Source: a bacterium
GTDB taxonomy: Bacteria > SZUA-182 > DTGQ01
Direction: 5' to 3'
DNA length: 64,000 nt
Assembly (NCBI GenBank): GCA_040755755.1
Contig: JBFLZW010000030.1
Location: 124,001-188,000 of the forward strand
A model generated the notes under the pieces. It made no database searches. It had not been told where the DNA came from and worked only from the letters and a program-made list of their open reading frames with translations. This document shows, in pieces, positions 52,527-64,000 of this stretch (position 1 is the stretch's first letter; each line of letters begins with the position of its first letter). A program made the translations under genes and the position numbers.

Positions 52527-53255
52527 GGGTGATCGATAACGTTAAAATTTTCAATTTTTACTTTAGTTTCTATAGACGCCGGGGTTGCAGAAAATAGAAA
52601 AGACAGCCTGTAATTTGACCTGCAACTTATCACCTTAATTATGAACCTTGTGACAGTCAAGAATAATCCCGGTAACAATCGGCAGAGGAACAGTAATAAT
52701 CAACCATCCAAATAAGGATCCCAGCAATAATGTCTGTATAACAGCGTTCATGGTCTTATCTCCTTGAAATAATTTGTTACTCTTACTCACCAAACTTCAT
52801 CATATCAGACGGTCAGCCATACCGGGTAATTACTCTCTTTTTTTATTCTGAAACAGATAAGAAATCAGGATGACAGATACTAACTGCTTTGTTCCCCCTT
52901 TCTTCAAATCGCATAAGTCCGGATAAGTCTACAAGTGTAAGTACCCAGTTAAAGCGGCATCAATGCCGTCATTCCTGCCTTTGCAGGAATGACGGGAAAT
53001 ATCAACACTTGTGGGCGCATGCAGAAGACATTACAAATCAAGACCAGATATGACCCTAACTTTTCGGGAAGACAAAGGGAGAAATAAAGAGAAAACTCCG
53101 TCTTCAAAAATAATCCTTGACCTTTCTTAACCAGTCCATTAAACTCGTTGTTATGAAAACCATGAAAACAATAAAAAATTCAAATTTTTCTTCGAATTGG
53201 ATAATGCATGTCCAGGATTAAACGGTATCCGTTAAATCTGAAAAGGGAATTAATC
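52527..53255. other. Intergenic region with a small ORF and REP-like hairpin
   Basis: Beyond the small minus-strand ORF at 52635-52751, a 13-bp perfect palindrome (CCGTCATTCCTGC, 52966-52978 with 52983-52995) is nested inside a looser ACAAGTGT/ACACTTGT pair. This resembles a REP element. The right end is AT-rich and includes the promoter of the RelB/ParE pair. Confidence 0.5.
52635..52751 (-). CDS. Possible 38-residue single-helix membrane protein
   Basis: ATG at 52751 on the minus strand, preceded at 6 bases by AAGGAGA, opens a 38-codon frame to TAA. The product starts MNAVIQTLLLGSLF, continues as a hydrophobic helix (GWLIITVPLPIVTGIIL) and ends DCHKVHN. A strong ribosome site and a complete membrane helix make chance less likely. 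It is convergent with pstB. Short single-helix proteins of this kind often accompany transporters or oxidases. No family recognised. Confidence 0.5.
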   Translation of the reverse strand: MNAVIQTLLLGSLFGWLIITVPLPIVTGIILDCHKVHN

Positions 53256-53465
53256 ATGAGCAGTAAGGAAATATTGGAAAAGGCAATCCAGCTTAAACCC
53301 CATGAGAAGCTTGCCATTATTGAGGGCTTATTAAGGAGCTTAGATGAGCCGAATAAAAATATTGATGAAATATGGGCTATCGAGGCTGAAAAAAGGTTAA
53401 GTGCTTATAGGAATGGTAGATTAAAAGGGATTCCAATGGAAGAGATTTTTCGTGAAGAGAAATGA
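53256..53465 (+). CDS. Antitoxin of the addiction-module component (RelB-like) family
   Basis: A 69-residue acidic protein with SSKEILEKAIQLKPHEKLAIIEGLLRSLDEP (in parts) and a C-terminal IPMEEIFRE helix, the hallmark of the small TIGR02574 antitoxins paired with ParE. AAAGGGA precedes ATG 53256; a start at 53208 is out of family. It overlaps the toxin gene by 4 bp. Confidence 0.85.
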   Translation: MSSKEILEKAIQLKPHEKLAIIEGLLRSLDEPNKNIDEIWAIEAEKRLSAYRNGRLKGIPMEEIFREEK

Positions 53466-53755
53466 AAATTATATTCACAGAACTTGCAAAAGCCGAACTT
53501 TTGGATGCTGTTGCATATTATGAACTTGAATATGAAGGCTTGGGGAAAAAGTTTAAAGAAGAAGTTAACGCTTCAATATTAAGAATAAACCAATTTCCAA
53601 CAGCTTGGTCGGTTGAATGTGGCGAAGTCCGGAAATGTTTAATGCACAAGTTTCCATACAAGATACTTTATTCTATTGAAGAAGATCATATACTGATTAT
53701 TGCTATTGCTCATCAGCACAGAAAGCCTGATTACTGGGTTGACCAAAAGGGTTAA
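53462..53755 (+). CDS. ParE/RelE-family toxin
   Basis: A 97-residue toxin: AKAELLDAVAYYELEYEGLGKKF, RINQFPTAW, RKCLMHKFPYKILYSIEE and the end block IIAIAHQHRKPDYW (each a recognised ParE segment). ParE toxins poison gyrase; RelE-like ones cut mRNA at ribosomes. The HRKPxYW end fits the ParE subgroup. The pair is intact, unlike the PIN module at 18.2 kb. Confidence 0.88.
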   Translation: MKIIFTELAKAELLDAVAYYELEYEGLGKKFKEEVNASILRINQFPTAWSVECGEVRKCLMHKFPYKILYSIEEDHILIIAIAHQHRKPDYWVDQKG

Positions 53756-55218: not shown

Positions 55219-55956
55219 ATGACGGAAGATTATCGCAGCAAGGTCGCTTTAGTGATTGGCGGGAGCCGTGGAATAGGGCGGGCGATAGCATTACGGCTGG
55301 CCCGGTCGAGCTTTGATATCTGGCTCGCTTACCGGGAGAATCATGAAGCTGCGCAGACAGTCAGGGCAGAAGTGGAACAGGCAGGCAGGCTCTGTGATCT
55401 GTTTTCCTTCGATGTCGCTAATTACGATGAGACAAAAGCCGCTCTGGGAGAAAAAGTGGAAGCGCATGCTCCCTCGGTGGTGGTATATAATGTCGGTGTT
55501 GCCCGGGATAATCTTTTTATGTGGATGACAAAAGAGGAGTGGGACACGGTTCTTTCCACTAATCTTGACGGGTTCTATAATATCATGCACCTGGTGCTCT
55601 TTCCCATGCTGCGTGAGAAGCAGGGACGCATTGTGGTTATATCTTCGGTCTCCGGGCAGATCGGGCAGGCAGGTCAGGTGAATTATTCCGCTTCCAAAGC
55701 CGGACTGATCGGTGCAGTCAAGGCCCTGGCCAGAGAAGTCGGAAAGAAAAATATCCTGGTCAATGTCGTTTCTCCGGGAATGATTGAAACGGATATGACC
55801 AGGGAAATCCCCAAAGACAAAGTAATCCCCCTCATTCCATTACAGCGGTTCGGGACTCCGGAAGATGTGGCCTCGGTCGTTAACTTTTTATGCACCGAAG
55901 AGCATATGTACATTCATGGTCAGGTTATCGGCATCAACGGGGGGCTGGCTATTTAG
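55219..55956 (+). CDS. 3-oxoacyl-ACP reductase (FabG-like short-chain dehydrogenase)
   Basis: A 245-residue SDR. GGSRGIGRAIALRLA binds NADPH (normally TGxSRGIG), YNVGVARD stands for the NAG motif, ISSVSGQIGQAG and NYSASKAGL supply Ser, Tyr and Lys. The FabG-type end IHGQVIGINGGLAI is complete. In polyene clusters the ketoreductase reduces the beta-keto group of each elongation. First gene of a nine-gene operon; its stop abuts the next ATG. Confidence 0.9.
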   Translation: MTEDYRSKVALVIGGSRGIGRAIALRLARSSFDIWLAYRENHEAAQTVRAEVEQAGRLCDLFSFDVANYDETKAALGEKVEAHAPSVVVYNVGVARDNLFMWMTKEEWDTVLSTNLDGFYNIMHLVLFPMLREKQGRIVVISSVSGQIGQAGQVNYSASKAGLIGAVKALAREVGKKNILVNVVSPGMIETDMTREIPKDKVIPLIPLQRFGTPEDVASVVNFLCTEEHMYIHGQVIGINGGLAI

Positions 55957-57471
55957 ATGGAGCGCTATGATGACCTCGTCGTTGGCAGTGGGGTAAGCGG
56001 TATGACCATTGCTCTCCTTCTGGCCATGAATGGACACAAGGTCCTGCTCCTGGAAAAAAATCCTCACCTTGGCGGAGCGATGGCCAGGTTTTACAAACAG
56101 GGTATCCCGTTTGACATAGGATTTCATTTTACCGGAGGGCTTTCCGACAATGGGATCCTTCGCCAGATGCTTTCGGTCCTCGAAATCGAGGAAGATATCC
56201 ACCCTGTATTCCTCCTCCATGAGAAAGCCAATCAGCTCGTTTTTGAAGCGGAACAAAATTCATACGAGATGCCGGCTGGAATACAGAATCTGCAAAGTAA
56301 GTTAAAAGGATACTTCCCTGACGAATGCCCGGCAATTGACCGGTATTTCGCTCTGGTACAGAAGGTTTGCAGGCAAACTGTTACTACTGATTTAAGCAGG
56401 ATTTCCCTGTCCCCGGATATGCTCGACGAAGATTTCATCAGCCTTGATCAGGTCCTGAACCAGTTAACTGACAATCAATCCTTAAAAGGCGTGTTATCGG
56501 CGTATTGTCTGTGCTACGGCGTGAAACCGCAGGAGGTCTCTTTTGCCAATCACAGCAGGATATGTCTGAATCAATATGAATCGATGGCCCGGGTTGAGGG
56601 GGGCGGAGATGCCTTTATTCAAGCCTTTGAGAAACAGTTTGCCCGCTATGATGTTGACATTATGAATAACAGATACCTGAGCGAAATGGTCGATATCAAA
56701 AATAATTCCGTTCAGCGGTTCGTTCTGAACACGGGAGAAGAAATAACCTGCAGCCGGTGTATTCTGACTATCCACCCCACGGAGATACTCAAGATACTGC
56801 CCCGGAAATATTTGAGCAAAGCCTTTATTGACCGGATATCGGCCTTTGAATCGTCAGCCGGATTTTTTTCGCTCTTCGGGGTCCTCCAGGCTGAGGGTCC
56901 TGAAGGTGAAAACAAAGATAATTTCCAGCCCTCGATTGTTACTCTTCTCCCATCCGGGGATTTGAATCAGATGCTCGATCCGGAATATTCCGGCACGCCT
57001 TCGTTGATTATCATGAAGTATCTGGAGGCAGTCAACGGGAAAACCTACCGGCTGGTAAGTGCCTTCGAACCATCTTTTTTCGAACATGCAGTTGCCTGGA
57101 AAGATTCACAAACCGGCAAAAGGCCTGCGGATTACCAAAAATACAAACAGCAGCGAATTGAGAGTATAACCGAGCGCATCCATAAATTCTATCCGGAATT
57201 CAAAAACTCCCTTCAGGTGATGGATGCGGCTTCGATTTTGACCTACCGGGATTATCTGCATTCACCCGAGGGGTCAGCTTATGGCATAAAGCAAAAAGTC
57301 GGACAGTATAACCTTTTTGGAAGGCTTCACCTTCGCAACATCTACGTTGCCGGTCAGAGCGCCCTGTTACCCGGATTGGTAGGGGCAATGATGTCATCGT
57401 TTATCATGGGCCGGGGCATAGTTGGCAAAGAAACATTCACCCGGTTTATCGAACAGAGATTATGCAATTGA
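55957..57471 (+). CDS. CrtI/phytoene-desaturase-like FAD oxidoreductase
   Basis: A 504-residue flavoprotein. The N terminus YDDLVVGSGVSGMTIALLL...EKN is the dinucleotide-binding fold, with GGAMARFYKQGIPFDIGFHF as the second block. The C terminus NIYVAGQSALLPGLVGAMMSSF is the conserved desaturase/isomerase end. Relatives introduce or isomerise double bonds on carotenoids and on fatty acid chains in ladderane-type clusters. It starts one base after fabG and overlaps the ketosynthase by 10 bp. Its substrate is probably ACP-bound or a released acyl chain. Confidence 0.82.
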   Translation: MERYDDLVVGSGVSGMTIALLLAMNGHKVLLLEKNPHLGGAMARFYKQGIPFDIGFHFTGGLSDNGILRQMLSVLEIEEDIHPVFLLHEKANQLVFEAEQNSYEMPAGIQNLQSKLKGYFPDECPAIDRYFALVQKVCRQTVTTDLSRISLSPDMLDEDFISLDQVLNQLTDNQSLKGVLSAYCLCYGVKPQEVSFANHSRICLNQYESMARVEGGGDAFIQAFEKQFARYDVDIMNNRYLSEMVDIKNNSVQRFVLNTGEEITCSRCILTIHPTEILKILPRKYLSKAFIDRISAFESSAGFFSLFGVLQAEGPEGENKDNFQPSIVTLLPSGDLNQMLDPEYSGTPSLIIMKYLEAVNGKTYRLVSAFEPSFFEHAVAWKDSQTGKRPADYQKYKQQRIESITERIHKFYPEFKNSLQVMDAASILTYRDYLHSPEGSAYGIKQKVGQYNLFGRLHLRNIYVAGQSALLPGLVGAMMSSFIMGRGIVGKETFTRFIEQRLCN

Positions 57472-58697
57472 AGCGAGTAGTCATAACAGGAGTTGGTGCA
57501 GTCTGCGGGTTAGGCCAGGACGTTCCCTCTCTTATCGAGGGAATCGAACAGGGGAAAAGCGCTGTTCGCTCCATGGAGGGATGGGACCGGTATAACGGCC
57601 TGCGCTGTCTGGTGGGGGCACCTTGTGAGTTGAAAAATGAGAAGGAAATCCCGCGGCAGTACCGGCGGCTGATGGGCAGGATGAGCATTTTTGCCGTACA
57701 GGCCAGCCAGCAGGCAATCGCTGATGCCGGGATACCACAGGAGAGCTTATCATCGGGACGGATCGGCTGCATCATCGGCTCGACTATGGGAAGCGCCGAG
57801 AGCCTGAACGAGGCATTTGAAATAATATTGCCGAACAAAGATCTGACTCAGTTAAAGTCGACCCAGTTTTTTCAATGTGTTTCCCACACAGCGACCATGA
57901 ATGTATCCCGATATCTGGGAATTCATGGGTATGTTACCGCCACTTCGGCAGCCTGCGCATCCGCCCTGCAGGCCCTGGGAGCGGGTTACGACCTGATCAG
58001 GCTGGGAAGACAGGAAGCCATGGTGTGCGGCGGTGCGGAGGAGCTCCATCCTACGGTAACCGGCTCTTTCGATGTCCTGGTTGCAACTTCGGCCCGGTAT
58101 AACCATGCTCCTCATCAAACTCCCCGGCCCTTTGACAGCAAACGTGACGGCCTTGTCTGCGGTGAAGGAAGCGGCATGCTCCTTCTGGAGGAATATGAAC
58201 GCGCACGGCAAAGAGGTGCCAGGATATACGCTGAAATCATCGGCTATAACACCAGTGGAAATGGAATCAATGTCAGCCAGTCCTATAAGGAAGCAATCGT
58301 CTCGTGTATGAGTGAGGCCTTACAAGACGCCTCTCTCACCCCACAGGATGTTGACTATATCAATGCCCATGCCACGGCAACCATCCAGGGAGATAAAGAA
58401 GAGGCCGAGGCGATCAGGGAGGTTTTCGGAAATTCCGTACCGGTAAGCAGTCTGAAGGGCTACTTTGGACATACCCTGGGGGCGTCAGGATCGATCGAAC
58501 TGATCGCCTCCCTGATCATGATGAAGAAAGGCAGGATTTATCCTACGCACAATCTGGAAACGGTCAGTCCGGAATGCGAGGGGATTTTTCATGTACAGGA
58601 ATGCCTGAACCGGGAGATCCGCGTCCTGCTCAAGAATTGCTTTGCCTTTGGGGGGATCAATGCTGCCTTGATCTGTAAAAAAGTGCCCTCTGAATAA
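57462..58697 (+). CDS. Beta-ketoacyl-ACP synthase (FabF/KAS II-like)
   Basis: A 411-residue condensing enzyme. The catalytic Cys is in ATSAACASAL, the two His in INAHATAT and GYFGHTLGASG, so all three are intact. Other family blocks: VVITGVGAV, GRIGCIIGSTMG, RPFDSKRDGLVCGEGSGM (in parts) and LLKNCFAFGGINAAL. It elongates an acyl chain on ACP with malonyl-ACP. It overlaps the oxidoreductase and sits 21 bp before the ACP. No chain-length factor is present, so it is a stand-alone homodimer type. Confidence 0.92.
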   Translation: MQLKRVVITGVGAVCGLGQDVPSLIEGIEQGKSAVRSMEGWDRYNGLRCLVGAPCELKNEKEIPRQYRRLMGRMSIFAVQASQQAIADAGIPQESLSSGRIGCIIGSTMGSAESLNEAFEIILPNKDLTQLKSTQFFQCVSHTATMNVSRYLGIHGYVTATSAACASALQALGAGYDLIRLGRQEAMVCGGAEELHPTVTGSFDVLVATSARYNHAPHQTPRPFDSKRDGLVCGEGSGMLLLEEYERARQRGARIYAEIIGYNTSGNGINVSQSYKEAIVSCMSEALQDASLTPQDVDYINAHATATIQGDKEEAEAIREVFGNSVPVSSLKGYFGHTLGASGSIELIASLIMMKKGRIYPTHNLETVSPECEGIFHVQECLNREIRVLLKNCFAFGGINAALICKKVPSE

Positions 58698-58718: not shown

Positions 58719-58970
58719 ATGACTGAGCAAGAAATAATCACCAAGGTAAACGAGGTATTTATCGAGTCGTTTGAAATAGCGCCGGAAAAGCTCCAGCCCC
58801 AGGTGAATATTTTTCAGGATCTGGGGCTGGATAGCCTTGATATTGTAGATTTGGTTGTGGCTCTGCAAAACAAGTTCAAGATAAAAATACACAATGATGA
58901 GCGGATGAGAGAAATCCGGACCCTGGAAGATATTCATCAGTTTGCCAAAAATATAGTTATTGACCGTTGA
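58719..58970 (+). CDS. Acyl carrier protein
   Basis: An 83-residue ACP. The phosphopantetheine Ser is in LGLDSLDIVDLVV, with typical acidic helices (QEIITKVNEVFIE, MREIRTLEDIHQF). A dedicated ACP next to a KS, KR and hotdog domain shows this locus builds its own acyl chain. AAAGGA lies before the ATG. Confidence 0.95.
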   Translation: MTEQEIITKVNEVFIESFEIAPEKLQPQVNIFQDLGLDSLDIVDLVVALQNKFKIKIHNDERMREIRTLEDIHQFAKNIVIDR

Positions 58971-59005: not shown

Positions 59006-59758
59006 ATGGATGGCCTCAGCGTTATACTGTTAAACACCTTTTTTTATGGAGCGTTTCTCGTGTTTTCGGCAACGGTTATACCGCTTTTCATCCTGTATCT
59101 TGCTCTTCTTTCGGTATTCATGTCACACCGCGGCATCATGAGACAGTTACGCCGTGCTATCAGTTGGTATGGTTTTATTATCATCAAGGTCTTTCCCTTT
59201 CCTTTTGCCCGGGTCCGGTACCGGGATTATGGAAAAGCCGATCCTGAGGGACCGTATCTTTTCGTCTGCAACCATCGGTCCGCTTCGGATGCCTTTTTAA
59301 TGGCCTGTTTGCCCTACGAATGTGTCCAGGTGGTAAACATCTGGCCGTTTCGGATACCGGTTTTGGGGACATTTGCCCGGCTGGCTGGCTATCTCAGCAT
59401 CAGAGAGATGTCGTTTGAGGAATTTTCCCGCAAATCGATCGATCTCCTCAACCAGGGAGTTTCCATCATTGCCTTTCCTGAAGGAACCCGTTCCGGGAGC
59501 AGCGTCATGAGGCCGTTTCACAGCTCAGTGTTCCGGGTCGCTCTCGAAGCCCGGTGCCCGATTGTGCCAATATGTATTTCCGGAAACGAAGACAAGCCCC
59601 ATCGGGGCTCTCTCATACTTCATCCGGGAATAATCAGGATGCATAAATTACCAGCCCTGCCCTGGGAAAAATACAAAGATTTAACCTCGTTTAAGTTAAA
59701 AAACATGGTGCGGGACATTATTGCCCGGGAACTGGCTGGTATGGAGGGAAATAGATAA
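59006..59758 (+). CDS. 1-acyl-sn-glycerol-3-phosphate acyltransferase-like protein (PlsC family)
   Basis: A 250-residue membrane-associated acyltransferase. An N-terminal hydrophobic region (about 8-40), then NHRSASDAFLMA (HX4D catalytic motif), FPEGTRSGSSVM (the substrate-binding EGTRS block) and IVPICISG. Transfers acyl groups from ACP or CoA to a lipid. GAGGGG precedes the ATG. Its TAATG end overlaps the ligase gene by one base. In aryl polyene clusters an acyltransferase moves the finished chain to a lipid core. Confidence 0.88.
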   Translation: MDGLSVILLNTFFYGAFLVFSATVIPLFILYLALLSVFMSHRGIMRQLRRAISWYGFIIIKVFPFPFARVRYRDYGKADPEGPYLFVCNHRSASDAFLMACLPYECVQVVNIWPFRIPVLGTFARLAGYLSIREMSFEEFSRKSIDLLNQGVSIIAFPEGTRSGSSVMRPFHSSVFRVALEARCPIVPICISGNEDKPHRGSLILHPGIIRMHKLPALPWEKYKDLTSFKLKNMVRDIIARELAGMEGNR

Positions 59759-61065
59759 TGACAGAGCTGTCCCGGTATCGGGAAATTTCGTTTTCCAGCC
59801 CGGAAGCGATACGAGAGGTGCAGGAGGGCCGGTTGCGAAAACATCTTGTTTATTGCCGTGAGCATTCCCCGTATTATCGAAGGGTGTTACAAGATATTGA
59901 CCTTGATTTTGAAAAGATAACCCTCGACCTGATATCCCGGCTTCCCTTCACGGATAAATCCGAGATCGAAAAATATAACCATGACCTGTGCGCAGTTGCC
60001 CCGGATAAAATCGTCGATATTGTCCTGTCCTCCGGAACAACCGGCAGCCCGACTCTGGTAATGTACACGGAGCATGATCTCAGGCGGCTTGCTTACAATG
60101 AGGAAATCTCCTTCCAGGGATGTGGAATGACCAGGGATGATGTGGTGCTGCTGACCTGTACCATAGACCGGTGTTTTGTGGCTGGTCTGGCGTATTTCCT
60201 GGGGGTGCGCAGTGTCGGGGCGGCAGCAATCAGGAGTGGCCAGAATAGTGTGGAAAGTCACTGGGAAATCATCAGGAGAATGAATCCTACAATTATCGTT
60301 GGAGTCCCGACCTTTCTCAAGAAACTGGGCCTCTATGTGCAGGAAAGGGGAGTCGATCCTGGTCAACTCAGGGTATCCAAACTGATATGCATCGGTGAGC
60401 CGTTACGGGATAAATATCTCAAGTTATTGAAGATCGGGGAAGATTTGGAAAAAATCTGGCAGGCTCAATGCTTTTCCACCTACGCTTCTTCGGAAGTGGT
60501 GACCACATTCTGCGAATGCAGTGCCCGGCAGGGAGGGCATCTTCATCCGGACCTGGCGGTTCTTGAAATCGTCGATGAAGCGGGCAGGGCAGTCCCTGCC
60601 GGAACTATCGGGGAGGTAGTGATAACTCCGCTGGCGGTTGAAGGAATGCCGCTGGTACGGTTTAAAACCGGAGATGTAAGCTTCCTGATCGATAAACCCT
60701 GCTCCTGCGGAAAAAACTCTCCCCGCCTGGGTCCGATCCTGGGGAGAAAGAAACAGATGATGAAGATCCGCGGGACCACCCTTTATCCCCAGGCAGTATA
60801 TTCAGCCCTGGACGAAATCGAGGCGGTCGGTGAATATTATCTTGTCGTCAGCCGCGAGAGCAATCTGTCTGACACCATAACCATTTATGCGGCGGTCAAC
60901 GACGCCTCATGTACGGCTGAGGTTATTCAGGACCGGCTTCAGGCACGGCTGCGGGTGAAACCGTCGGTGGTGATCGATTCTCCGGAAGCGGTACGGCAAC
61001 AGGTGTTCAACCCGAAATCGAGGAAACCGATCCGGTTCCGGGATAAACGACAGGGGATGAAGTAA
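59758..61065 (+). CDS. PaaK-like adenylate-forming ligase
   Basis: A 435-residue enzyme of the phenylacetate-CoA ligase type. Shown by VLSSGTTGSPTLVMYTE (P-loop), TYASSEVV, VITPLAVEGMPLVRFKTGD and GRKKQMMKIRGTTLYP. The Cys-rich PCSCGKNSPR loop is usual in PaaK relatives. It activates an aryl or acyl acid as AMP ester and passes it to CoA or ACP; here it may load the starter unit. It overlaps plsC by one base and is 2 bp from the radical SAM gene. Confidence 0.85.
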   Translation: MTELSRYREISFSSPEAIREVQEGRLRKHLVYCREHSPYYRRVLQDIDLDFEKITLDLISRLPFTDKSEIEKYNHDLCAVAPDKIVDIVLSSGTTGSPTLVMYTEHDLRRLAYNEEISFQGCGMTRDDVVLLTCTIDRCFVAGLAYFLGVRSVGAAAIRSGQNSVESHWEIIRRMNPTIIVGVPTFLKKLGLYVQERGVDPGQLRVSKLICIGEPLRDKYLKLLKIGEDLEKIWQAQCFSTYASSEVVTTFCECSARQGGHLHPDLAVLEIVDEAGRAVPAGTIGEVVITPLAVEGMPLVRFKTGDVSFLIDKPCSCGKNSPRLGPILGRKKQMMKIRGTTLYPQAVYSALDEIEAVGEYYLVVSRESNLSDTITIYAAVNDASCTAEVIQDRLQARLRVKPSVVIDSPEAVRQQVFNPKSRKPIRFRDKRQGMK

Positions 61066-61067
61066 CC

Positions 61068-62558
61068 ATGCAAACCTGCCCAAGCAAGATTCGTAACTTT
61101 GAATTCAGCCGGGAAGAAATCGAAGAGGCAGTAAGAGCTGACCGGCTCCTTTCTCTGGAGATCGAATTCAGCCTGCGCTGCAATTTTCGCTGCTCGTATT
61201 GCTACCAGCCGGAAAGCTCTGTGTTCGAACATGAACTGACGGAAGAAGAAATCCGGGATGTTATTCTCCAGGCCAAAGACCTTGGAGCCAGAAAAATCGT
61301 TATCCTCGGCGGCGAGCCGATGGTCTATCCCCACATTCTCGAAGTAATTGCCTTTATCCGGCAGCAGGGTCTCGATATCGAGATGTTTACCAACGGCTTT
61401 CAGATCACGGCTGCCGTGGCCGGGTATTTGTTCAACCATCAGGTCATGGTGGTCCTCAAGATGAATACTCATGATGAAAAGACCCAGGATATGCTGGCCG
61501 GGAAAAAGGGAGCCTACAAAATCATCCAGACTGCGTTTTTGCATTTGAAACAGGCAGGCTACCCCTCCGAAAAAGCTCCTCTGGCAGTCAGCACCATTAT
61601 CTGCCGGCAGAATATCGATGATCTGGCAGGTATGTGGCAGTGGCTGCGAAATCAAAACATTATTCCCTATTTTGAAATGATTACTCCCCAGGGCAATGCC
61701 AGACAGAATGCATGGTTAGCGGTCGATTCAAAAAAAGTGTTTGACGTATTTCAGCAGATCGCCGACATCGACCGCCGTCAATATGGCCAGTGCTGGGACC
61801 CTCAGCCTCCTCTGGTCGGCAACAAGTGCCTGCGGCACCGGTTTTCCTGCCTGGTCAATTCGCAGGGGGATGTAATGCCCTGTGTCGGGGTGGGTATTCC
61901 TATCGGCAATATCCGGGAGCACAGGCTTTCCGATATCTTGCAGGGGAGTGAGGTTGTCCGGGACCTCAAAAACTTCCGTCACACCATCAAAGGCCCCTGC
62001 CGCAGGTGCGAAAAACTCGAGAGCTGCTACGGCTGCCGGGGGGCGGCCTATCAATTGACCGGAGATTATCTGGCCTCGGACCCCTTATGCTGGAAGAACG
62101 CCGACCGTCAGGATGAAATCGTTACCCTGCCGATATCGGCCCATGAGATTATCCCGCAGAAAGAACCGATGCGGGTCATCGATTCCCTGCTCAAATTGGG
62201 CGAGCGGACAGCGGAAGTTTCGGTAACTATCCGGGAAGATATGCCCGGGGTCGATGAAAACGGCATGATCGACCAGACCCTCTATCTTGAAATGATGGCC
62301 CAGGCCGTTGCAGCTCAAAAGGGATTCAAATACCTTGGCACATCTCAATCGCCGCCCGATGGATTTCTGCTGGGAGCCAGAAATCTGGAGATTCTGGGGA
62401 GTGCCTGTGTCGGCGATACCCTGACCGTGATGGTAACCCAGTCTGTCCAGTATGGTGATTTTGGGCTGGTACAGGGCACCGTGGTGCGGGGCGGTCAGGT
62501 GCTGGCACGAGGGGAGATAAAGGTCTGGCAAAATACCAGTCAGGAGGCAGTTGCTTGA
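61068..62558 (+). CDS. Radical SAM/SPASM protein fused to a C-terminal hotdog domain
   Basis: A 496-residue fusion. Radical SAM core (about 28-230): CNFRCSYC cluster site, GGEPMVYPH and NGFQITA. SPASM region (about 250-345): CLRHRFSC, MPCVG, CRRCEKLESCYGC and CW bind auxiliary clusters. Residues about 355-496 are a FabA/FabZ/ApeP-like hotdog: IPQKEPMRVIDSLL corresponds to the FabZ PHRYPFLLVD block but has Gln in place of the catalytic His, while LEMMAQAVAAQ keeps the Glu. The hotdog may thus bind acyl chains without dehydrating. A radical step on an ACP-bound chain is inferred. Its end overlaps the LolA gene by 4 bp. Confidence 0.85.
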   Translation: MQTCPSKIRNFEFSREEIEEAVRADRLLSLEIEFSLRCNFRCSYCYQPESSVFEHELTEEEIRDVILQAKDLGARKIVILGGEPMVYPHILEVIAFIRQQGLDIEMFTNGFQITAAVAGYLFNHQVMVVLKMNTHDEKTQDMLAGKKGAYKIIQTAFLHLKQAGYPSEKAPLAVSTIICRQNIDDLAGMWQWLRNQNIIPYFEMITPQGNARQNAWLAVDSKKVFDVFQQIADIDRRQYGQCWDPQPPLVGNKCLRHRFSCLVNSQGDVMPCVGVGIPIGNIREHRLSDILQGSEVVRDLKNFRHTIKGPCRRCEKLESCYGCRGAAYQLTGDYLASDPLCWKNADRQDEIVTLPISAHEIIPQKEPMRVIDSLLKLGERTAEVSVTIREDMPGVDENGMIDQTLYLEMMAQAVAAQKGFKYLGTSQSPPDGFLLGARNLEILGSACVGDTLTVMVTQSVQYGDFGLVQGTVVRGGQVLARGEIKVWQNTSQEAVA

Positions 62559-63217
62559 AACAACAGGCAATAGTGTTCATGGTATGGTTTTTACTGTTCG
62601 GAATATGCCGCCTCAGTGAACCGGCAATGCAGGAAGCCGGTCGTCCGGATACGCCGCAAATCGTTACGATCCTGAAAAGGCTGGAAGGGAAAATGTCCGG
62701 CATAAAAACACTCAGGACCAGTTTCACTCAGGAGAAAAATCTCGCGGTTTTCGATCGCAAGCTCATCCTGAAAGGAACTATTTTTCTGCAAAAGCCTGAT
62801 CTTTTCGCCTGGCATGTCAAAGATCCGGTCCGCTATTCCCTGCTCATAAAAGGCGGCGCAGTAACTCAATGGGATGAAGAGAGCGGGAAGGTCCAGCACA
62901 TATCCCTGGCGAAGAATCCCGGATATCAAATTGTCACCCGGCAGTTGCAGGAATGGTTTTCCGGTACCTATACTTCACTGCTTGAGCACTACGAGGTGAG
63001 GGTCCTGAATCATGATCCGGTTTGCCTGAAGTTCGATCCCCGCAAAGATGCCCTGGCCAGTAAAGCCATTACCAGTGTCACCGTTACCTTCGATAAGGAT
63101 GAGCGCTACATTCAAACAATCTCCATCCAGGAAAAGAATGGAGATGGCACCCTCCTTACCTTTACCGATACTCAGCTCAATATTCCCATCGATGCCAGGG
63201 CCTGGGAGGTGAAATAG
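62555..63217 (+). CDS. LolA-like outer-membrane lipoprotein carrier
   Basis: A 220-residue periplasmic protein: signal peptide (about 1-20), then RTSFTQEKNLAVFDRKLILKGTIFLQKPDLFAW (recognised in parts), a fold that carries acyl chains between membranes. In aryl polyene clusters a LolA-like gene beside an MMPL exporter moves the product to the outer membrane. It begins with TTG (AGGAGG upstream) overlapping the radical SAM stop. Confidence 0.88.
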   Translation: MKQQAIVFMVWFLLFGICRLSEPAMQEAGRPDTPQIVTILKRLEGKMSGIKTLRTSFTQEKNLAVFDRKLILKGTIFLQKPDLFAWHVKDPVRYSLLIKGGAVTQWDEESGKVQHISLAKNPGYQIVTRQLQEWFSGTYTSLLEHYEVRVLNHDPVCLKFDPRKDALASKAITSVTVTFDKDERYIQTISIQEKNGDGTLLTFTDTQLNIPIDARAWEVK

Positions 63218-63218
63218 G

Positions 63219-64000
63219 GTGTCTGACGGCTCTCTCTCACCTTCTCCCCGGATACAGAGAAGGAAATATCTGTTTCCTGGATTGATAGGGGTAATCATCC
63301 TTGCCTCGGCCCTTGGCCTGAGATCCATTTCCTTTGACAACAATGTGGAATCCATGCTTCCGGCAGATGAGGAAGTTGTTCGCTCCATCCGGTTTTTCAG
63401 AGAATCCGATCTTTCAGACAAGGTTTTCATCTCATTAGGCATAAAGTCTTCCGGCCATTCGACGAAGGAGCTCATTCAGGCCGTCGATCAATTAGCCGCT
63501 TCTCTCAGGTCCCCCCTGGTGACCGAGGTGATGACCGGAGTGTCGGAAACCGAGATGCTTAGTGAGATCGATACCCTGCTGACAGGTTTTCCCCAGTTGG
63601 CCAGTCAAAAAGACCTCTGCCGCATCGATCGGTTGCTAACCCCCCAGGGAGTCAAAGACAGCCTGGCCAGGGATTTTCAGCACCTTTTAACCCCTGCCAG
63701 CAGCTTCATGGTGCCCTTCATCCGCTCGGATCCTTTGGGGATAAAGGCCAGGGTACTGGGCAATCTCCGCACCCTTTATACCAGCCTGGGATATGAAGTC
63801 AATCTCGAAGACGGGCACTTTATCAGCAAGGATGGAAGGCATGCCCTGCTCATCCTGAAAACTCCGGTAGTCCTTACCGACGGATTCGGTTCCCGGAAAT
63901 TGCACGCCTTCCTGCTTGACCGCCTGAAGTCTTTGCCCGACTTTGTCTTCGCAGACATCGTGGCCGGGCACCTTCACTCCATAAGTAATGAAGATGTCCT
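63219..64000 (+). CDS. MMPL/RND-family exporter, N-terminal part (cut by window edge)
   Basis: The frame begins GTG one base after the LolA stop and runs open to the window end, 260 codons. The N-terminal helix (YLFPGLIGVIILASALGL) is followed by SFDNNVESMLPADEEVV, the periplasmic start of MMPL exporters in aryl polyene clusters, then a long periplasmic loop. MMPL proteins export lipids with proton force. It completes the LolA-MMPL pair. GGAGG sits 10 bases before the GTG. The rest, including the second half, is outside the window. Confidence 0.85.
   Translation, partial: MSDGSLSPSPRIQRRKYLFPGLIGVIILASALGLRSISFDNNVESMLPADEEVVRSIRFFRESDLSDKVFISLGIKSSGHSTKELIQAVDQLAASLRSPLVTEVMTGVSETEMLSEIDTLLTGFPQLASQKDLCRIDRLLTPQGVKDSLARDFQHLLTPASSFMVPFIRSDPLGIKARVLGNLRTLYTSLGYEVNLEDGHFISKDGRHALLILKTPVVLTDGFGSRKLHAFLLDRLKSLPDFVFADIVAGHLHSISNEDV

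Follow-up and report, generated by a model that had tools for sequence, protein, structure and literature searches.

The window, that is, the whole 64,000-nucleotide stretch of DNA that was analysed, ends within an operon whose seventh gene encodes a 496-residue protein that joins a radical SAM (rSAM)/SPASM enzyme to a hotdog domain of the FabZ/ApeP type. This reading frame opens with an ATG, contains no internal stop codon, starts two bases past the stop codon of a ligase gene, and ends in a stop codon that overlaps the start of a LolA gene by four bases. The genes of the operon and the principal features of the fusion protein are as follows.

55219–55956, + strand: 3-ketoacyl-ACP reductase (FabG/FlxB-like), above the NCBIfam NF004200 cut-off
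55957–57471, + strand: CrtD/CrtISO-like FAD oxidoreductase ("phytoene desaturase-like"; Pfam NAD_binding_8 and Amino_oxidase; TIGR02733 best, below cut-off)
57462–58697, + strand: beta-ketoacyl-ACP synthase (NF006587, 432 bits; cut-off 470)
58719–58970, + strand: acyl carrier protein (Pfam PP-binding)
59006–59758, + strand: PlsC-type acyltransferase (Pfam Acyltransferase)
59758–61065, + strand: FlxY-like acyl-CoA/ACP ligase of the PaaK fold (NF053551, 471 bits; cut-off 520)
61068–62558, + strand: rSAM/SPASM-ApeP fusion gene, 496 aa, a single ORF (Pfam domains; 20 fused homologues including this one)
61179–61202, + strand: CX3CX2C motif for the SAM-binding [4Fe-4S] cluster (C38, C42, C45), invariant in 41 of 41 rSAM homologues and gone in the relative from genome G302
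61827–62090, + strand: SPASM region (Pfam) with Cys 254, 272, 311, 314, 320, 323 and 341 for auxiliary Fe-S clusters (all seven in 41 of 41 homologues) and C261 (40 of 41)
62130–62549, + strand: ApeP-like hotdog domain, with PDB 6QSR_B as best profile match and top fold match
62157–62159, + strand: Gln364 of PQKEPM, the site of a supposedly lost histidine
62289–62291, + strand: Glu408 of LEMMAQ, aligned with the FabZ/ApeP catalytic Glu (ApeP "IEMMAQA")
62555–63217, + strand: LolA-like carrier (Pfam LolA; NF053544 LolA2_flexi, 94 bits)
63219–63998, + strand: MMPL-type exporter, running off the window; the operon continues in L038
Beyond the window (L038): DUF3261, ApeI-like hotdog (L038:3287–3691), 4HBT, KS2, CLF, B12-rSAM1, B12-rSAM2, GT2 and LpxL

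As far as the contigs or fetched stretches extend, all fused loci share a near-invariant 18-gene operon in the order FabG, CrtD-like, KS, ACP, PlsC, FlxY-like, rSAM-ApeP, LolA, MMPL, DUF3261, ApeI-like, 4HBT, KS2, CLF, B12-rSAM1, B12-rSAM2, GT2 and LpxL, the exceptions being the absence of CrtD in L041 and of FlxY in L097 (genome G550) and G302. With its KS, CLF, FabG, ACP, ApeI, ApeP, ligase, and LolA/MMPL/DUF3261 export set, the operon is of the aryl-polyene (APE)/flexirubin type; the ketoreductase scores above the curated NF004200 cut-off, while the flexirubin equivalogs of this operon fall below their own. When compared with the published gene list of APE and flexirubin clusters (PMC8253772), FabG, KS, CLF, ACP, the PlsC-type acyltransferase, ligase, LolA, MMPL, DUF3261, 4HBT, and GT2 are held in common, whereas three radical SAM enzymes and the CrtD-like oxidoreductase set the present operon apart, as do its hosts, which are mostly MAGs labelled Desulfobacterota and Nitrospirota. 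In further contrast to those clusters, no ammonia lyase was seen among the conserved operon genes; no enoyl reductase was seen there either. Taken as a whole, the operon looks built for polyene lipids; in the literature searched, no paper joining flexirubin and radical SAM was found. Two side observations concern the neighbourhood: a type II toxin-antitoxin pair (Unstab_antitox/ParE_toxin) lies upstream of the operon at 53208–53755, and a candidate defence pair (PADLOC PDC-M07A/B, an AAA ATPase and a small partner; L038:5334–7109, C30:192333–194108), just past the window, interrupts the operon of the window genome between KS2 and CLF. KS2 and CLF adjoin in most relatives inspected, with other small ORFs between them in L047 and L040.

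The same rSAM-hotdog join, at the same point and in one frame, recurs in 20 loci from unrelated assemblies. It is therefore practically certain that the fusion does not stem from a missed stop codon or a mis-assembly; nothing was found in favour of such an artefact, and the missing stop that the initial annotation had named as a possible refutation is ruled out, leaving its description of a radical SAM/SPASM enzyme fused to a FabZ/ApeP-type hotdog intact. The family survey that it had proposed recovered these 20 copies across several phyla: four of nine genomes sampled in the window's phylum, one of four in that of G042, 11 of 296 in that of a Nitrospirae MAG, and further copies in G061 and G063 (MAGs labelled Desulfuromonadales and Desulfobacterales), L044, and G302.

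Unfused relatives were also found, in 16 of 345 genomes of the Desulfobacterota sample and 2 of 296 of the Nitrospirota sample, and are of two kinds: close ones (57–60% identical), which include Thiorhodococcus and lie in KS-PlsC-rSAM clusters without FlxY or hotdogs, and distant ones beside FlxY. For the close relatives, an ApeP/ApeI hotdog or a stand-alone hotdog gene was sought by motif and by profile and none was found in the loci fetched, which indicates that the radical reaction can proceed without the fusion. FlxY adjoins the rSAM gene in nearly all fused clusters and in the FlxY-type unfused clusters. A quick tree placed the unfused clade among the fused ones, but a single fused clade was not rejected (AU p 0.52), so that this tree does not establish a loss of the fusion. 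A DAK2/DegV (fatty-acid-kinase-like) fusion is encoded in some KS-PlsC-rSAM clusters that lack FlxY (L111:16444–18531, L051:4060–5916), which suggests that these clusters use preformed fatty acids. In another genome (G202, L109:451–9283), an unfused rSAM gene is followed on the same strand by three large RHS-repeat proteins.

In the radical half, the Pfam Radical_SAM domain spans residues 32–186 (74.5 bits) and SPASM residues 254–315 (40 bits), and the ten canonical cysteines of the radical SAM/SPASM superfamily are kept in all 41 homologues. As judged from the intact Fe-S motifs, nothing suggests that the radical enzyme of the window genome is dead. The best NCBIfam models for this half are AhbD, NirJ2, and PqqE (126, 115, and 110 bits), SPASM enzymes with which the cysteine motifs are shared; however, the curated cut-offs are 500, 500, and 381 bits, and assignment to any of these equivalogs was rejected on scores so far beneath them. 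The fusion protein also differs from these three enzymes in bearing a dehydratase-type hotdog, and in contrast to them, no peptide precursor or PqqD-like protein was seen in the conserved operon. The window genome additionally encodes a stand-alone rSAM/SPASM paralogue (G000:C66:9758–10801, locus L039; 32–34% identical), near which no polyene-operon genes were recognised. A structure model of the full-length fusion, of modest confidence (pLDDT 65), gave no usable domain arrangement.

In the C-terminal half, a single-sequence search placed the Pfam ApeP-like domain (PF22817) at residues 361–494 with 21.3 bits, short of the curated gathering score of 27. Used as a profile, the hotdog found its best solved relative in ApeP (6QSR chain B, E 1.2e-11), and its predicted structure (modest confidence, pLDDT 72), a check that had been proposed beforehand, returned the same chain as top fold match (E 8.9e-10); the resemblance to FabZ/ApeP noticed at the outset is thus borne out. 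The catalytic histidine is a different matter. The initial annotation had identified it with the His of PH-R-YPF, replaced here by Gln364, but the FabZ catalytic His lies in GHFP: the catalytic pair of Helicobacter pylori FabZ is His58 and Glu72 of the other subunit (PMC2692856), and in alignments of the Scalindua amxFabZ structures, 8AYB reads GHFP and 8AYI, titled "H48N", reads GNFP, while both read PQKYPF at the site first singled out. Since the native protein (8AYB) has this Gln alongside an intact dyad, Gln is compatible with a working FabZ dyad, and the H-to-Q change was rejected as a loss of catalysis because it concerns the wrong residue. Nor is the change general, Gln being found in just 4 of the 20 fused proteins and His in the remaining 16. 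What holds of the original observation is that the domain lacks the FabZ His: at the true position, no residue of the fused hotdog aligns, so that the alignment anticipated as a refutation, one finding the His elsewhere, did not materialise. ApeP likewise lacks this His. The Glu in LEMMAQ does stay, as had been stated, Glu408 being invariant in all 20 fused proteins. The domain therefore resembles an ApeP-type half (nearest solved structure ApeP, Glu kept, own catalytic His absent) and not a homodimeric FabZ, in which one chain carries both the His and the Glu of the dyad.

A candidate for the missing residue is encoded by the fourth gene downstream of the fusion in the same operon, the small ApeI-like hotdog. 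This partner is present in all 20 fused clusters and keeps the GHFP His in every one, whereas position +14, a Glu in FabZ, never bears an acid (Gln in 18, Gly in one, Leu in one); in an ungapped alignment with H. pylori FabZ, its His39 lies opposite His58 and its Gln53 opposite Glu72. Its best PDB profile match is 6QSR_A (E 1.5e-7), and so the two hotdogs find their best matches in the two chains of one heterodimer. ApeI and ApeP are reported to form a dehydratase heterodimer that has just one active site (PMC8041823). As in the Xenorhabdus doucetiae ApeI:ApeP structure (6QSR), each cluster contains two hotdogs, the ApeP half without the catalytic His and the ApeI half with the GHFP His, and each half matches the corresponding chain best. 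Unlike in 6QSR, the ApeP half is here C-terminal to an rSAM/SPASM enzyme; moreover, 6QSR ApeI has an Asp at +14 where the ApeI-like half has no acid, which makes the split cleaner here than in the template. A precedent for joining one dehydratase half to another pathway enzyme comes from Acinetobacter baumannii, where ApeI and the ligase ApeH make up one fusion protein (PMC8041823), whereas the ApeI-like protein here stands alone. As a control, the dehydratase of L115 and L117, the only distant unfused clusters in which one was found, is an ordinary FabZ that has the His as well as the Glu. From these residue patterns, it is very likely that the partner supplies the catalytic His in trans and the fused domain the Glu, and we predict with high confidence that the two form a heterodimer with dehydratase activity. 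The "lost" histidine would then point to a division of labour rather than to a loss of dehydratase function. As a counterpoint, two other FabA/FabZ-family genes in the window genome could in principle dehydrate.

The fused relative in G302 (L084:1093–2226, G302:C22; 365–377 residues) amounts to a natural experiment, its operon being otherwise complete except for FlxY. Here the CX3CX2C and GGE motifs are gone, about 140 barrel residues are deleted, and no Pfam Radical_SAM domain is found; SPASM, the Glu-bearing hotdog, the reading frame, and the ApeI partner are all retained. A dead radical core beside a preserved hotdog implies that the hotdog has a job of its own, as a dehydratase subunit would. 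No close copy of the missing operon FlxY occurs elsewhere in this genome (best 29%), and the joint absence of ligase and radical core, a single event, hints at a shared role of the two in handling the starter or head group. In G550 (L097), the operon also lacks FlxY, the rSAM is intact, and a FlxY homologue lies elsewhere in the genome, which weakens the link between FlxY and the rSAM.

The explanation that best accounts for the whole, and which we consider probable, is a bifunctional subunit that combines the ApeP half of a split dehydratase with tethered radical tailoring. At the level of sequence, the fusion, the family, the complementary residues, the synteny, and the intact Fe-S motifs are established. 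The protein would belong to an anaerobic type-II polyene-lipid synthase related to APE/flexirubin clusters, in which KS/CLF would extend an ACP-bound starter and FabG would reduce it. Paired with the ApeI-like hotdog, the fusion's hotdog would form the ApeP half of a split 3-hydroxyacyl-ACP dehydratase, the partner His and Glu408 making up one active site across the interface that dehydrates the growing chain; with no enoyl reductase seen in the conserved operon, the gene set suggests that the chain would become a polyene. Anchored to the elongation complex via the dehydratase, the rSAM/SPASM half may tailor an ACP-bound intermediate in an oxygen-free radical step, the likeliest target being the starter or head group that the adjoining FlxY-like ligase activates. 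Linking the product to a lipid would fall to the acyltransferases and the glycosyltransferase, and exporting it to LolA/MMPL/DUF3261. For the radical reaction itself, our favoured hypothesis is tailoring of an ACP-bound starter or chain, although that the substrate is ACP-bound is suggested only tentatively, at somewhat below even confidence; the earlier idea that the fusion links the radical enzyme to the ACP-bound chain is upheld to the extent of being plausible. That the rSAM/SPASM half acts on an ACP-bound polyene or head group docked via the dehydratase heterodimer, making it a radical SAM enzyme inside a fatty-acid-like elongation complex, in a family that includes an anammox ladderane-candidate enzyme, seems to us rather unlikely.

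Other readings differ in what they make of each half. According to the initial annotation, the hotdog is no longer catalytic as a dehydratase and serves only to bind the ACP-bound chain, or to isomerise it, on behalf of the radical enzyme. The domain has no catalytic His of its own, and hotdogs can serve as binding or thioesterase folds; yet the residue called lost is non-catalytic, Glu408 never varies, all 20 operons encode a partner that bears the His and lacks the acid, the nearest solved structure is that of ApeP within a dehydratase heterodimer, and the hotdog persists where the radical core dies (G302), all of which renders this role improbable and leaves the step from a lost His to binding or isomerisation, instead of dehydration, unsupported. 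A different proposal accepts the hotdog as a dehydratase subunit but has the halves joined for co-expression or stoichiometry only, with the rSAM modifying the free starter acid, FlxY's substrate, before loading and without channelling. The unfused same-family rSAMs without a hotdog, the adjacency of FlxY and rSAM, and the absence of both FlxY and the radical core in G302 would all fit it, whereas the retention of the fusion across several phyla despite strong sequence divergence suggests that the fusion matters, and G550 lacks FlxY beside an intact rSAM. We regard this arrangement as possible, though on the doubtful side.

The comparison with ladderane candidates bears on the rSAM family as well as on its chemistry. 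The gene order in L115 and L117 (ligase, rSAM, B12-rSAM, FabG, ACP, FabZ) is that of kuste3344 to kuste3339 as listed for Kuenenia (PMC4790861), and, by gene order, the ladderane candidate kuste3343 and its Desulfotalea counterpart probably belong to the rSAM family. With the Kuenenia kuste3335–3352 cluster and its Desulfotalea counterpart (PMC2649909, PMC4790861), the present operon shares a ligase, rSAM, B12-rSAM, FabG, ACP, dehydratase, phytoene-desaturase-like gene, glycosyltransferase, and a TIGR04072 member, but it has a fused ApeP and a separate ApeI instead of FabZ, together with APE-like export genes. The TIGR04072 model, "rSAM_ladder_B12", matches B12-rSAM2 of the window genome at 626 bits (cut-off 360), which, with the L115/L117 order, might suggest that the fused rSAM acts on the polyene chain in a ladderane-like radical reaction, either a cyclisation or a desaturation. 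This is very improbable: Rattray and co-workers described the Kuenenia-Desulfotalea synteny, and no ladderanes were detected in Desulfotalea psychrophila (PMC2649909), while the present operon carries the APE export set. The family link to kuste3343 does not mean that the hosts of this operon make ladderanes. The ladderane pathway itself is unproven, and no protein was detectable when the Kuenenia rSAM genes kuste3342/3343 were expressed in a foreign host (PMC4790861); beyond the anammox bacteria, "ladderane" calls by antiSMASH have been reported in several phyla and lack an explanation (PMC9902471).

Radical SAM enzymes recur in the fatty-acid-like clusters of anaerobes, including those of the anammox ladderane candidates, and a version fused to a dehydratase subunit tells which complex the radical enzyme belongs to. 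The fusion and its ApeI-like partner form a tractable pair with two residue predictions, and G302 offers a ready-made comparison, since the contribution of the radical step, and nothing else, should be missing from its lipid.
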